This document shows positions 11,544 to 63,387 of a stretch of 64,000 bases of DNA, piece by piece. The position numbers and the translations under genes were made by a program. The notes under the pieces are model-generated. The model made no database searches and was not told where the DNA came from. It saw only the letters and a program-made list of their open reading frames with translations. Position 1 is the first letter of the stretch, and each line of letters begins with the position of its first letter. The DNA is from Nocardioides aurantiacus (GTDB taxonomy: Bacteria; Actinomycetota; Actinomycetes; Propionibacteriales; Nocardioidaceae). The stretch lies in the NCBI RefSeq assembly GCF_003752505.1, contig NZ_RKHO01000001.1, positions 3,100,001 through 3,164,000 of the forward strand, given 5' to 3'.

Positions 11544-11583
11544 AACGCACCACCCCGACCCGGACCGCGGGGCGGGGACGGGC

Positions 11584-27919: not shown

Positions 27920-28022
27920 TCACAGGGTCGGCGCACGGCGCGGGCTCACCCCTTCGGGGCCGGTGAACTGTAGTGTCCTGATGGTCTTTTCCCGGTCGTC
28001 CGCCCTCACCTTGGAGGCCCCG

Positions 28023-39876: not shown

Positions 39877-41256
39877 TCAGGAGAGCTGCGGCAGCTTGGT
39901 CAGCGCCTCGGCGACGGCCGACTGGAGGGCGTCGTCCTCCCAGGAGGTGTCCTCGATGGTGCCGGCGAGGTAGGAGGCGTAGGCCGGGAGGTCGAGGTGG
40001 CCGTGGCCGCACAGGGCGGTGAGGATGACCTTCTCCTCGCCGGTCTCCTTGCAGCGCAGCGCCTCCTCGATCGCGGCGGCGAGCGCGTGGGTCGGTTCGG
40101 GCGCCGGGACGATGCCCTCGGTGCGGGCGAAGAGCACACCGGCGGCGAAGCACTCCGACTGGGGCTTGGCCACCGCGCCGATCTCGCCGGTCTCGTAGAG
40201 GTGGCTGATCAGCGGGCTCATGCCGTGGTAGCGCAGCCCACCGGAGTGGATCGGGTCGGGCACGAAGTCGTGGCCCAGCGTGTGCATCTTCATCAGGGGC
40301 GTCATGCCCGCGGTGTCGCCGAAGTCGTAGGCGTAGGTGCCCTGGGTCAGGGTCGGGCAGGCGGTGGGCTCGACGGCGCGCACCTCGGGCGACATCCGCC
40401 CGGCCCACTTCTCGCGCAGGAACGGGAACATCAGCCCGCCGAAGTTGGAGCCGCCGCCGGTGCAGCCCACCAGCAGGTCGGGGGTCTCCCCCACCTTGGC
40501 CAGCTGGAGCAGCGCCTCCTCCCCGATGATCGTCTGGTGCAGCAGCACGTGGTTGAGCACGCTGCCGAGGGCGTAGTTGACCGTCGGGTCCTGCGCGGCG
40601 ACCTCGACCGCCTCGCTGATCGCGATGCCGAGGGAGCCGGTGGAGTCGGGGTGCTCGGCGAGGATCGCCCGGCCGGCCTCGGTCAGCTCCGAGGGGCTGG
40701 GGTGCACGGTGCCGCCGAAGGTCTCGATCATCATCCGGCGGTAGGGCTTCTGGTCGTACGACGCCCGCACCTGCCAGATCTCGCACTCCATGTCGTACTG
40801 CGCGCACGCGAACGCCAGCGACGTGCCCCACTGGCCCGCACCGGTCTCGGTGGTGAGCTTCGAGATGCCCGCCTGCTTGTTGTAGAACGCCTGCGGCACG
40901 GCGGTGTTGGGCTTGTGGGAGCCGGCGGGCGAGACGCCCTCGTACTTGTAGTAGATCCGCGCCGGGGTGCCGAGCGCCTTCTCGAGGCGGTGCGCCCGGA
41001 ACAGCGGGCTGGGCCGCCACAGCCGGTAGACGTCGAGCACCTCCTCGGGGATGTCGAGGTACTGCTCGGTGGAGACCTCCTGCTCGATCAGCGCCATCGG
41101 GAACAGCGGCGTGAGGTCGTCGGGGCCGATCGGCTGGCCGGTGCCGGGGTGCAGCGGCGGCGGCGGGGGCGTGGGCAGGTCGTGGAGCACGTTGTACCAG
41201 CGGGTGGGCATCTCGCCCTCGTCCAGCAGGATCTTGTGCTGCTTCACGTCCGTCAT
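39877..41256 (-). CDS. TrpB2-type tryptophan synthase beta-like PLP enzyme
   Basis: A 459-residue fold-type II PLP enzyme of the TrpB2 (long, stand-alone TrpB) group. The TrpB2-specific N-terminus [23 protein letters not shown] and [23 protein letters not shown] precede the PLP-lysine motif GSHKPNTA (Lys about 115), [17 protein letters not shown] and the phosphate cradle [15 protein letters not shown]. No trpA or other trp gene is nearby. TrpB2 enzymes can condense indole with serine or phosphoserine, and some deaminate serine or threonine. It lies 84 nt downstream of cimA with its own promoter-like TAGATT. Confidence 0.92.
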
Positions 41257-41340: not shown

Positions 41341-42918
41341 TCAGGCGTCGTGGCGGCGCAGCCCGAAGGTCAGGCCGTCGATGAGCGCGTGCCAGGACGC
41401 CTCGATGACGTTGGGCCCCACCCCGACGGTGACCCACGAACCCTGGCCGTCGGTGGTCTCGATGAGCACCCGGGTGATCGCGTCGGTGCCGTGGCCCTGG
41501 TCGAGGATCCGGACCTTGTAGTCGATCAGCTCGAACTTCACGATCTCGGGGTAGAGCTGGCTGATCGCCTGCCGCAGCGCCGAGTCCAGCGCGTTGACCG
41601 GGCCGTTGCCCTCGCCGGTCACCACGATCCGGGCGCCCCCGGCCCGCAGCTTGACCGTCGCCTCGGACAGCGCGTCGGCGGCGACCCGGGTCTCGGTGAT
41701 GACGCGCCACGACTCCACCTCGACGTACGACGGCCGCGTCCCCTCGACCTCCTCGAGGAGCAGCAGCTCGAACGACGCGTCGGCCGCCTCGAAGGTCCAG
41801 CCGCGCGACTCCAGCTCCTTGACCCGCCCGGTGACCCGCTGCACCAGCTCGGGGCCGAGCTCGAAGCCGAGCTCGCGCCCCTTCAGCTCGATCGAGGCCC
41901 GTCCGGCCATGTCGGAGACCAGGAGCCTCATGTCGTTGCCGACGCCCGCGGGGTCCATGTGCTGGTAGAGGTCGGGGTCGACCTTGATGGCGCTGGCGTG
42001 CAGGCCGGCCTTGTGCGCGAAGGCCGAGGTGCCGACGTAGGGCTGGCGCGAGGCGGGCGGCACGTTGGTGACCTCGGCGACGGCGTGCGCGACCCGGGTG
42101 GCCTCGGCGAGCAGGCCGGGGGGCAGCACCTGCCGGTCGAGCTTGAGCTCGAGGTTGGCCACGACCGTGACGAGGTCGGCGTTGCCGGTGCGCTCGCCGT
42201 AGCCGTTGAGCGTGCCCTGCACGTGGGTGGCGCCGGCGTCGACGGCGGCCAGGGTGTTGGCGACGGCGCAGCCGGTGTCGTTGTGGCAGTGGATGCCGAC
42301 GCGGACGCCGGTGGTCTCCACGACGTCGTGCACCACGTCGCCGACCCAGCCCGGCAGCATGCCGCCGTTGGTGTCGCACAGCGCGGCGACCTCGGCGCCG
42401 GCCTCGAAGGCGGTGCGCAGCACCTCGAGGGCGTAGTCGCGGTTGTCGCGGTAGCCGTCGAAGAAGTGCTCGGCGTCCAGGAAGACGCGCTGTCCCTCCG
42501 CCCGCAGGTGGGACACGGTGTCGCGCACCATCGCGAGGTTCTCGGCCAGCGTGGTGCGCAGGGCCAGCTCGACGTGGCGGTCGTGCGACTTGGCCACGAG
42601 CGTCACCACGCCGGCGCCGGAGTCGCGCAGCGCGGCCACGAGCGGGTCGTCGGCGGCGGCCAGGCCCGCGCGCCGGGTCGCACCGAAGGCCGCCAGCCGG
42701 GCGTGCTCGAGGTGGAGCTCCGCGCGGGCCCGCCGGAAGAACTCCGTGTCACGGGGGTTGGCCCCCGGCCACCCGCCCTCGATGAACCCGACCCCGAGCC
42801 CGTCGATGTGCCGCGCGACCGCGAGCTTGTCGGCGACCGAGAGGGTCAGGCCCTCCTGCTGGGCACCGTCGCGCAGCGTCGTGTCGTAGACGTGGAACAG
42901 GTCACCGGTGGGGGTCAT
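41341..42918 (-). CDS. cimA: (R)-citramalate synthase
   Basis: Condenses pyruvate and acetyl-CoA to citramalate, starting a threonine-independent route to isoleucine via 2-oxobutyrate. The 525-residue protein has the DRE-TIM metallolyase opening VYDTTLRDGAQQEGLTLSVADK, GIHCHNDTGCAVANTLAAV, and VQGTLNGYGERTGNADLV. The C-terminal regulatory domain has SWVTVGVGPNVIEASWHAL. This layout matches CimA rather than LeuA (LeuA has a different opening, and a shorter CimA-like GERTGNA is present here). Upstream is a complete attenuator with an Ile-Ile leader peptide. LeuCD and LeuB, which serve the next citramalate steps, are also in the window. Confidence 0.92.
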   Translation of the reverse strand: MTPTGDLFHVYDTTLRDGAQQEGLTLSVADKLAVARHIDGLGVGFIEGGWPGANPRDTEFFRRARAELHLEHARLAAFGATRRAGLAAADDPLVAALRDSGAGVVTLVAKSHDRHVELALRTTLAENLAMVRDTVSHLRAEGQRVFLDAEHFFDGYRDNRDYALEVLRTAFEAGAEVAALCDTNGGMLPGWVGDVVHDVVETTGVRVGIHCHNDTGCAVANTLAAVDAGATHVQGTLNGYGERTGNADLVTVVANLELKLDRQVLPPGLLAEATRVAHAVAEVTNVPPASRQPYVGTSAFAHKAGLHASAIKVDPDLYQHMDPAGVGNDMRLLVSDMAGRASIELKGRELGFELGPELVQRVTGRVKELESRGWTFEAADASFELLLLEEVEGTRPSYVEVESWRVITETRVAADALSEATVKLRAGGARIVVTGEGNGPVNALDSALRQAISQLYPEIVKFELIDYKVRILDQGHGTDAITRVLIETTDGQGSWVTVGVGPNVIEASWHALIDGLTFGLRRHDA

Positions 42919-42966
42919 GGACCAGGTCCTTCGGGGTGCGGGAGTGTGCGGGGGACGTGCCGGGGC

Positions 42967-42999
42967 AAAGAAAAAGACCCCCCGTGAGGACGAGAGGTC
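42967..42999 (-). terminator. Intrinsic terminator of the cimA attenuator
   Basis: GACCTCTCGT pairs with ACGGGGGGTC (10 bp, two G-U) across a CCTC loop, followed by TTTTTCTTT. It is one of only two real U-tract terminators seen in the window, the other being before ilvB. Confidence 0.85.
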
Positions 43000-43031
43000 G
43001 GCGCGACGGCCAGGTGAGCGGGGCCGTCGCG

Positions 43032-43061
43032 CTAGGCGATGATGCGGGTGCGGTGCTGCAT
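43032..43061 (-). CDS. cimA leader peptide MQHRTRIIA
   Basis: A 9-residue ORF whose two consecutive Ile codons (ATC ATC) sit two codons before the stop, exactly where a stalled ribosome would disrupt the following hairpin. No Shine-Dalgarno is seen; a -10-like CAGACT lies 7 nt upstream of the ATG, so the transcript is probably leaderless. The Ile pair fits CimA's role in isoleucine synthesis. Confidence 0.75.
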   Translation of the reverse strand: MQHRTRIIA

Positions 43062-43068
43062 GGCGGCG

Positions 43069-43097
43069 AGTCTGCCACGGATGTCCGGCGCTCGGAA
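43069..43097 (-). promoter_or_regulatory. Putative cimA promoter
   Basis: CAGACT (43069-43074) as -10 and TTCCGA (43092-43097) as -35 with a 17-nt spacer. The predicted start point falls on or next to the leader-peptide ATG. Confidence 0.4.
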
Positions 43098-43131
43098 CGC
43101 CCGACCGGCATCCGGTCCGGCGTACGACGCG

Positions 43132-44211
43132 TCAGGGCGCGGCGGGCGCGACCGGGGCCACCGCGACGGCACCCGCGGAGACGATCCCGCCCGTGAGCGT
43201 GCGGGCCAGCCCGTAGCGGTTGACCAGCCCGACGGTCACGCAGTCGCTGTCGAGCCCGGACGGCTCGACCCAGGCGCCTGCGGACACCGGCGCGAACTCG
43301 CGCACGACGTCGACCGGCTGCTGGGCGCAGTCGCCGGTCCACAGCCGGAGCTCGACGAGCGACCCGGCCGGCACCGACGTCGGCGGCCGCCAGGTGACCG
43401 CGAGGCCGCCGGCCCGGACCGAGATGTCGACCCCGCCGAGGCTCCCGGGCAGCGGGTCGATGAGGCACCAGCCCCGCGGGGCAACCCGCGGGGAGCCGCC
43501 GTAGAGCCGCACCAGGCGGGAGGCCAGCGGTGCGTCGATGGTCCGGCAGCCGTAGGCGCCGGGGTGCTCCGCGGCGACCACGCCGCACCCGGCGACGTCG
43601 AGCACGGGGGCCATCAGCGAGCAGGCCGTGGTGGTGTGGTCCAGGCCGAGCACGTGGCCGAGCTCGTGGGCGAGGACGTTCATCACCTCGACGCGGGTGT
43701 GGGCGCTGGTGGCATCGGCCACGCGGTACGCCGAGCTGAGCTCGACGAACGCGCCGCGGGTGCGTCCCACCGTGGCCAGGCCGGCCGCCCCGCCGGTGTC
43801 GCCGTAGGACACGGTCACCTGGGCGACCCGGCGGCTGGTCGTGCGGACGAGCGTGATCCGCGAGCCGGAGGCGTTCCACGTGGCGATGGCGGTGCGCAGG
43901 CTCCAGTCCCACCGGGCCGGCAGGGTCTCGCGGACGTAGAGCCGCGACCCGCGCCACGCGATGGCCGCCCGGGCGGTGCCGGAGGTGCGCGCGTGGACCG
44001 CGTCGTCACCGAGGTGCAGGGCGTCCGCGCCGTCGGCGTCGTCGCGGCCCGGGGTGGCGGCCGGGGTGACGGCCGGGGCGACGGCCGGGGTCACCGCGGG
44101 GCTCGTCGCGGCGGACGCCGGGGCGAGCGGGGCCAGCAGGCCCGCCAGCACCGCGAGCACGACGGCGCTCAGCAGGGCGGCCGGCGCTACCGACGTACGA
44201 CGGGGACTCAT
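43132..44211 (-). CDS. Secreted matrixin-like zinc metalloprotease
   Basis: A 359-residue exported protein. From the ATG at 44211 there is a signal peptide with an Arg-rich n-region (MSPRRTSV), a hydrophobic core and an APASA cleavage site near residue 36, then an Ala/Pro/Thr-rich low-complexity spacer (repeats of AVTPAVAP). The catalytic domain has the zinc motif HELGHVLGLDH and a downstream Met-turn SLMAP, as in matrixins (M10-like). The C-terminal about 150 residues have several Cys, which may form disulphides. The frame extends to 44265 but the longer start disrupts the signal peptide. Substrate unknown. Confidence 0.88.
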   Translation of the reverse strand: MSPRRTSVAPAALLSAVVLAVLAGLLAPLAPASAATSPAVTPAVAPAVTPAATPGRDDADGADALHLGDDAVHARTSGTARAAIAWRGSRLYVRETLPARWDWSLRTAIATWNASGSRITLVRTTSRRVAQVTVSYGDTGGAAGLATVGRTRGAFVELSSAYRVADATSAHTRVEVMNVLAHELGHVLGLDHTTTACSLMAPVLDVAGCGVVAAEHPGAYGCRTIDAPLASRLVRLYGGSPRVAPRGWCLIDPLPGSLGGVDISVRAGGLAVTWRPPTSVPAGSLVELRLWTGDCAQQPVDVVREFAPVSAGAWVEPSGLDSDCVTVGLVNRYGLARTLTGGIVSAGAVAVAPVAPAAP

Positions 44212-44386
44212 GTCCGTATCGTGGCGTGCTGGCCGGGATAGGTGAACTGCCCGGATTCTGCGCACTAGACCGGTTCTGCGGACTCAGCCGAACCGGTGGC
44301 GGAACGCCCCGGGAACCGCTGCGCGACCCGTGTCGGGGCGCGCGGGCCCGTCCGGGTCCGTTCGGGTCGGTCCGTGCCGAGGACGG

Positions 44387-63350: not shown

Positions 63351-63387
63351 AACAAAAAACCCCTCGAGCCGGTCGGCTGACGAGGGG
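63351..63387 (-). terminator. Intrinsic terminator of the ilvB attenuator
   Basis: CCCCTCG pairs with CGAGGGG (63381-63387 with 63360-63366); the interior AGCC/GGCT can extend the stem. A run of six U follows at 63354-63359. This and the cimA terminator are the only U-tract terminators I see in the window. Confidence 0.85.

Follow-up and report, generated by a model that had tools for sequence, protein, structure and literature searches.

The cimA locus and its leader region

The 64-kb stretch of the Nocardioides aurantiacus genome analysed here (the window) carries on its minus strand a cimA gene for citramalate synthase, which is preceded by a short open reading frame (ORF) and two consecutive hairpins, termed P1 and T, the second of which runs into a U tract. 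In the order in which they would be transcribed, the features of this locus are as follows:

43069..43074, minus strand: -10-like hexamer CAGACT in GTGGCAGACT, 7 nt 5' of the leader start codon, recognised by its sequence
43032..43061, minus strand: leader ORF MQHRTRIIA*, 9 codons plus TAG, with ATG at 43061 and TAG at 43034-43032
43038..43043, minus strand: tandem Ile codons ATC ATC, the putative control codons, the last one starting 8 nt before the first base of P1
43001..43032, minus strand: hairpin P1, 11 bp with a 10-nt loop, arms 43032-43022 and 43011-43001
42976..42999, minus strand: stem T of the putative intrinsic terminator, 10 bp with a 4-nt loop, arms 42999-42990 and 42985-42976
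42967..42975, minus strand: U tract UUUUUCUUU, recognised by its sequence
41341..42918, minus strand: cimA, citramalate synthase, the gene proposed to be regulated (scoring 625.8 bits with TIGR00977, an equivalog model with a cut-off of 450)

The codons of the leader ORF read ATG CAG CAC CGC ACC CGC ATC ATC GCC TAG (43061-43032, minus strand), the G of the UAG being at the same time the first base of P1, and a single nucleotide separates P1 from T. The cimA start codon (ATG at 42918) follows 48 nt after the U tract. An earlier reading made from the sequence alone (the sequence-only reading) had described a 9-codon Ile ORF, an 11-bp hairpin and a 10-bp terminator with a U tract before cimA, and all of these are found at the positions it gave; its distance to cimA of 49 nt has to be corrected to 48 nt, the rest of the description being right to within one base. 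Directly downstream of cimA, at 39877-41256 on the minus strand, lies a gene for a TrpB-like PLP enzyme (NF009057).

With respect to U tracts, both strands of the window together contain four runs of four or more T, namely TTTT at 27987 on the plus strand and, on the minus strand, TTTT at 11545, TTTTT at 42975 before cimA and TTTTTT at 63359 before ilvB. Runs of at least five T are thus found in the 64 kb before cimA and ilvB only, which agrees with the statement of the sequence-only reading that no other gene in the window has a U-tract terminator. A strict scan of positions 42000-44000 returned no sigma-70 promoter. The folding energy of the leader region taken by itself is unremarkable (z = -1.15, with 26 of 200 shuffles folding equally well), and because the region is thermodynamically not unusual, the case for a regulatory element rests on its conservation.

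Conservation and covariation of the element

From a starting set of 80 cimA loci gathered by protein similarity, a regular expression picked 34 elements, to which two (L070 and L079) were added by eye, resulting in 36 elements for the comparison of segment pairings (see below). A covariance model, R1, was trained on an alignment of 24 of the 36, the window being excluded. In this 24-sequence alignment, P1 and T covary, with two-sided changes in 11 of their 21 pairs and pairing in 96.7% of the cells, a proportion that falls to 41-57% if the partners are slid by 1-3 columns. The covariation score was reached by none of 500 shuffles, and in one of the five covariation measures, that of further pair types, the observed value was reached by 23 of 500. 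Within P1 it is the upper half that covaries, the base GCGCG/CGCGC being invariant in the 24 sequences.

Among the 80 starting loci, 35 have an R1 match directly before cimA, these including all 24 training sequences, and two further matches (L063 and the second one in L049) sit elsewhere than before cimA. In the source genome (4.06 Mb) the best match of R1 is the cimA site of the window (69.2 bits, E = 2e-16), followed jointly by the leader of the window's ilvB and an unrelated partial match (17.7 bits, E = 0.8). As the model was built without the window, this score bears out the earlier judgement that a chance match is unlikely.

Within the family, 132 of 149 sampled genomes contain cimA, and in 117 of these the element is found upstream on the same strand, at a distance to cimA of 19-133 nt (median 55 nt). 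In a sample of 396 genomes from the phylum, cimA itself is present in 284. For the class to which the window belongs, the element adjoins cimA in 15 of 16 cimA genomes of this sample, its own genome included, and beyond this class three cimA-adjacent cases (G057, G252 and G313) were obtained with R1 at E up to 0.01.

Anatomy of the cimA elements

The 109 cimA rows correspond to 106 distinct elements, most of which were collected with R1 or with the regular expression, the latter admitting 0-9 bases between the Ile codons and P1. According to a table that anchors P1 on a GCGC-like motif and selects runs of Ile codons, an Ile codon precedes P1 in all 106 elements, in a run of two to four in 98 and singly in 8. 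The distance from the first base of the last Ile codon to the base of P1 is 8 nt in 94 elements, 11 nt in 10, and 10 and 13 nt in one each, extreme spacings being liable to be missed because of the collection by R1 or by an expression that limits the spacing; when the analysis was repeated with a rule without preference for Ile, and with another de-duplication, the last codon was found at -8 in 70 of 94 elements. Relative to P1, the stop codon lies at -2 (as UAG) in 68 elements, at +7 to +23 in 37 and at -4 in one, and in 83 of the 106 an ATG or GTG start precedes P1 by 26, 29 or 32 nt.

In the last two Ile codons of the 98 elements that have at least two, positions 1 and 2 are invariant and position 3 is either C or T. 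This purely synonymous variation of the Ile codons amounts to a coding constraint. The rest of the leader peptide is not conserved, as can be seen from VQQRQIIIS, MTSGRLIIG, VHAATIIIV and MQSISIIIDRRAGH. The minor codon ATT accounts for 33 of 70 Ile codons in the leaders, as counted with fixed offsets that miss some leader codons, in contrast to 38 of 539 within codons 1-500 of the same cimA genes (ATT versus ATC in the loci on genome contigs, p = 6e-16, Fisher's exact test). Together with the frequency of the element in the family and the covariation of both P1 and T, the occurrence of Ile codons in every element means that the conservation in relatives, on which the sequence-only reading had made its proposal depend, is found for the element as a whole, for its control codons and for its stems.

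In the window, a co-directional gene, the ORF at 43132-44265, ends on the same strand about 130 nt before T, and the hairpin and U tract might be taken for the terminator of this gene and the leader ORF for an accident. This reading is scarcely credible, as ORF, Ile codons and spacing are conserved before cimA in many genomes, the Ile codons vary only in synonymous positions, and a -10-like site separates the upstream gene from the leader ORF; a chance ORF and a terminator of the upstream gene were both rejected on conservation. In 71 of the 106 elements an in-frame start is preceded at 6-7 nt by an extended -10-like site (none by that rule in 24), and the position of this site points to a leaderless leader ORF.

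The gap between P1 and T amounts to 0 or 1 nt in 96 of the 106 cimA elements, a count in which overlaps were set to 0 and a few wrongly assigned P1 are included. If both stems are extended as far as possible in the elements of cimA, ilvB, leuA and leuB (146 elements, eight rows with a mis-assigned P1 being left out), the distance between P1 and T ranges from a gap of 1 nt to an overlap of 3 nt in 128, and the two stems share at least one nucleotide in only 25. A terminator was not recognised by a simple finder in 7 of 182 R1 sites, four of them ilvB sites, among the matches listed. A small helix enclosing the Ile codons was also considered and set aside: one of 500 permutations reached the observed value, a slight excess that is uncorrected for relatedness.

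Related elements at ilvB, leuA, leuB and leuS

R1 also finds elements before other genes of branched-chain amino acid (BCAA) metabolism. Among the matches listed for the phylum sample, there are 90 placed R1 rows (a second, overlapping row of G351 being left out), of which 18 belong to cimA, 45 to ilvB, 4 to leuA, 2 to leuB and 1 to serA; the other 20 are without a tblastn assignment, one of these (L176) being leuS and several resembling ordinary terminators. The leuA genes behind the elements were confirmed as coding for 2-isopropylmalate synthase, and the two leuB cases are leuB-led clusters. In the serA case the gene is 1.3 kb away, with an aminotransferase gene in between.

Counted with the rule that does not favour Ile, the BCAA codons of the cimA leaders comprise 216 Ile, 41 Leu and 33 Val codons (n = 290), those of the ilvB leaders 26 Ile, 71 Leu and 82 Val codons (n = 179), and those of the leuA leaders Leu codons throughout (12 of 12); as the rows are related by descent, the chi-square value for this table of codons by gene is not to be read as a probability. 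At cimA, ilvB and leuA the control codons therefore follow the product of the gene behind the element, and cimA, ilvB, leuA and at least one leuS are linked in one class of elements.

It could be argued that this class is a riboswitch or a protein-binding RNA with an untranslated ORF, given the strong sequence conservation of the GCGCG/CGCGC base of P1 and of part of T and the proposal of a protein-bound element for leuA (PMC1262725). The correspondence of the control codons with the downstream gene and the codon-position pattern speak against such an RNA, as does the lack of an Rfam match at the curated score, and it is considered very improbable. In the window, the Rfam search returned two tRNAs only, and in eight loci searched with E up to 1 it returned two matches far below the curated scores, one of which overlaps the element (L004, Atu_C8, 26 bits against a curated 50).

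With respect to spacing, the last control codon is at -8 or -9 in 32 of 39 ilvB sites found by R1 and, by the anchor of the script used, at -8 in one of four leuA sites; no anchor was found by this script in L172 and in L083, the ilvB leader of the window itself. As R1 is biased towards the spacing of its training set, 30 additional ilvB loci were retrieved by protein and without R1. The script found a hairpin with a U tract in 27 of these, the layout being judged by eye, and in 29 a short ORF contains GTA adjacent to a further BCAA codon, a count without a shuffled control. Many of these leaders resemble ATT CTC GTA CTT CAC TAG with a hairpin just after, and their gaps between P1 and T, as determined by a simple finder, are more variable (up to 8 nt). 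In the cimA elements the layout known from the Streptomyces ilvB kind is likewise found, with the last control codon 8-9 nt before P1, a stop codon at the foot of P1 or inside it and a contiguous T.

Several further observations concern these leaders. The ilvB leader of the window (63445-63351, minus strand) shares with cimA the layout of P1 followed by a terminator. The control codons of ilvB leaders are taken from rare synonymous codons (GTA, CTT and ATT); GTA accounts for 35 of 82 Val codons in the leaders, nearly all of which were found by R1, versus 29 of 2110 in the ilvB genes, the leader counts being skewed in favour of A/T-rich codons, since these positions are part of the R1 model. 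Leaders of the form LLL...PR* also occur among the R1 matches (L146 MAAALLLSPPR, L161 MAAALLLSWPR and L169 MRTGLLLTEPR) and resemble the leuS leader of Streptomyces lividans. One ilvB element found by R1 (L144) codes for the peptide MRTRILVLGKRVG, which is letter for letter the IlvL peptide of S. lividans as given in PMC8079986.

Genomes lacking the element at cimA

Fifteen of the 132 cimA genomes of the family have no R1 match next to cimA, and the upstream stretches of 13 of them were inspected by eye. In four (L207, L208, L210 and L214) an ilvE-like reading frame lies directly upstream, and cimA is therefore probably part of an operon. Seven others (L206, L209, L212, L213, L215, L217 and L218) have a -10-like box just before the cimA start and no attenuator, and it looks as if the latter had been deleted. 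The two that are left of these 13, L211 and L216, show no clear pattern; as to the other two genomes, there is a strong R1 match on a different contig in G513, and cimA is partial in G467. Among the 80 starting loci, L013, L014, L016-L018 and L020-L023 from metagenome-assembled genomes likewise have, as judged by eye, an ilvE-like frame directly upstream, and they lack the element. Since the element is missing at cimA in some genomes, this control is dispensable.

Two loci from Nitriliruptoria (L053 and L056) have, as judged by eye, Ile codons and an apparent hairpin upstream of cimA and no U-tract terminator; control may be Rho-dependent there or may have been lost. In L107 and L127 the attenuator is followed by an uncharacterised protein of about 95 amino acids, which in the case of L127 matches no NCBIfam family.

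Search for an antiterminator

In the 36 elements, 19 pairs of segments were compared with shuffled sequences, and the pairings that clearly exceed the shuffles are those between the two arms of P1 and between the two arms of T only. The helix corresponding to the 2:3 type of Escherichia coli, formed by the 3' arm of P1 and the 5' arm of T, pairs less than expected by chance (0.92 observed versus 4.23 shuffled, with 3 of 36 elements above shuffles). In masked folding, with a ribosome footprint at three positions or no ribosome, T is equally probable in every state (0.94-0.95), so that no switch is seen. In an RNA lacking the 3' arm of T, the 5' arm of T is paired elsewhere with a probability of 0.14 (ribosome at the first Ile codon), 0.36 (last Ile codon) and 0.39 (stop codon). 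Thermodynamics alone thus shows no switch in the direction wanted.

The sequence-only reading had called the attenuator complete. This holds for the ORF, the Ile codons and the terminator, whereas an alternative pairing that would act as an antiterminator of the E. coli type was not found, and the switch must therefore act through P1 itself or through a pairing that has been overlooked. A helix with this role might be short, pseudoknotted or specific for certain lineages, and the element would then be a classical attenuator, in which a stalled ribosome frees an antiterminator helix that uses part of T. In line with this, pairing between the P1 loop and the 3' arm of T is slightly above shuffles (24 of 36 elements), a pairing also proposed for the ilvB-II motif of Corynebacterium (PMC10272879), one element (L044) has an 11-bp match between the leader and the 3' arm of T, and the adjacent hairpins of C. 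glutamicum ilvBNC share 3 nt (PMC11857589). However, the arm-to-arm pairs of P1 and T alone stand out from the shuffles, the pairing of the E. coli type falls below them, some P1 loops consist of just 3-5 nt, and P1 and T seldom share nucleotides even after maximal extension. A classical antiterminator was accordingly set aside on the segment-pair comparison and the masked folding, and an attenuator of this kind is, on balance, unlikely.

P1 might also be a pause hairpin that synchronises RNA polymerase with the ribosome, the response to Ile taking a different course, for instance via Rho or the degradation of a leader that is not translated. From the end of P1 to the end of the 5' arm of T there are about 11 nt, which resembles the spacing of known pause hairpins. 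However, neither the strict distance of 8 nt from Ile codon to P1 nor, among the matches listed, the U-tract terminator right behind P1 would be explained, and a pause hairpin is regarded as quite improbable.

Proposed mechanism

The ORF with its Ile codons, the 8-nt spacing, the covarying and contiguous stems P1 and T, their place before cimA and the codons of the sister elements are best explained by a ribosome-mediated transcription attenuator that senses charged tRNA-Ile by means of a leaderless ORF and a switch based on P1. This explanation as a whole is held with good confidence, and Ile-dependent attenuation as such with higher confidence still; for a steric role of P1, the chances appear even. 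Very probably, cimA is switched on mainly when isoleucine runs short.

According to this proposal, transcription would start at or beside the leader AUG, and the 9-codon ORF would be translated as a leaderless message. With isoleucine in plentiful supply, the ribosome would pass both Ile codons, reach the UAG and melt P1, whereupon the adjacent T could close and transcription would end before cimA. If isoleucine is short, the ribosome would wait with an Ile codon in the A site, leaving P1 folded at the mRNA entry. Folded P1, being contiguous with the base of T, would hinder the closing of the last pairs of T, and RNA polymerase would read on into cimA; among the steps put forward here from sequence, this blocking of T by P1 is the most conjectural.

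The spacing is in line with this order of events. When the last Ile codon occupies the A site, P1 starts 11 nt beyond the first P-site nucleotide, and according to PMC7282821 the ribosomal channel holds 11 nt beyond this nucleotide, a stem-loop at 11-12 nt from it sitting at the mRNA entry and hindering the binding of tRNA to the A site. It would follow that a ribosome held on the Ile codons leaves P1 folded and that one at the stop codon must melt it. As P1 and T rarely share nucleotides, contiguity itself is proposed to matter.

More tentatively, the elements might constitute a phylum-wide class of ruler-and-wedge attenuators, in which a hairpin placed at the mRNA entry replaces alternative base pairing. 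The hairpin would hinder tRNA binding at the last control codon and thereby sharpen the response; it would report, by being folded or melted, whether the ribosome has passed; and in its folded state it would sterically stop the contiguous terminator from closing in the exit channel of the polymerase. If this is true, expression should be high when the leader is wholly untranslated, which is the opposite of what holds for the attenuators of E. coli.

In a large part of the actinobacteria, citramalate synthase, which opens an alternative route to isoleucine, would gain a product-specific control at the RNA level. Owing to the fixed 8-nt spacing and the contiguous hairpins, the action of actinobacterial BCAA attenuators becomes testable with few mutations, and the element might serve as a ready handle in strains that produce isoleucine or citramalate.

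Comparison with known systems

In the titles and abstracts of the open-access literature, no description of a cimA attenuator was found, in agreement with the sequence-only reading, to which none was known; subscription papers cannot be excluded. As far as considered here, PMC1262725 treats trp, cys, ilvB, leuA, leuS, trpS and ileS. The RNA-seq reannotation of S. lividans names eight leader peptides, and none of those considered here is located at cimA, the terms cimA and citramalate being absent from that paper (PMC8079986). Changes to the leader codons of S. coelicolor ilvB were reported to be without effect (Craster 1999, as cited in PMC1262725), a result that stands against the attenuation model. 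A precedent in its favour is Mycobacterium tuberculosis ilvB1, in which replacement of LVVI by AAAA removes induction (PMC13236596).

With the trp, his and ilvGMEDA attenuators of E. coli, the cimA element shares a leader peptide with tandem control codons that is followed by an intrinsic terminator. In these operons the control codons lie within the first hairpin, whereas in the cimA element they are upstream of it and no antiterminator of segments 2 and 3 was found.

The LEU element of actinobacterial leuA is alike in having a leader peptide with runs of codons for one BCAA before the gene of a homologous synthase (PMC1262725). It differs by a proposed pseudoknot at the base of which Leu codons would pair with the Shine-Dalgarno site, and its leader is described as being without a typical terminator (PMC1262725). 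The window's leader MQHRTRIIA contains no Leu codon, and the hairpins found there are consecutive, with T ending about 50 nt before cimA.

In C. glutamicum ilvBNC, with its 'three-hairpin' arrangement, and in the ilvB-II motif, terminator and antiterminator have adjacent bases as well (PMC11857589, PMC10272879); an RNA that starts one nucleotide away from the start codon of the leader and the control codons CUU and GUA may also be counted as likenesses (PMC11857589). However, the hairpins there have 3 nt in common, and there is a third hairpin that overlaps with the leader ORF (PMC11857589), whereas at cimA the Ile codons are upstream of P1 and shared nucleotides are rare.

The ilvB1NC operon of M. 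tuberculosis resembles the cimA element in its BCAA leader peptide, a starved ribosome upstream of the hairpin, masking at the stop codon and an intrinsic terminator, the published model being that a ribosome at the stop masks the antiterminator (PMC13236596). It has a truncated leader RNA, a counterpart of which is predicted at cimA (PMC13236596). The differences are that it concerns ilvB, with LVVI codons and a mutually exclusive terminator and antiterminator (PMC13236596), in contrast to cimA, Ile codons and hairpins that are contiguous and mostly non-overlapping.

The ilvL-ilvBHC leader of Streptomyces (PMC8079986, PMC1262725) belongs to the same class of elements, R1 having found an ilvB element with the identical peptide (L144) and the last control codon at -8, the difference being that Ile, Leu and Val codons precede ilvB there and Ile codons precede cimA here. 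A leader ORF with tandem codons for the product of the pathway is conserved at cimA, and an intrinsic terminator, as indicated by sequence and covariation, lies between this ORF and the gene. By the features compared, the cimA element is therefore to be classed, as far as its sequence can tell, with the leader-peptide attenuators, its nearest relatives being those of actinobacterial ilvB.
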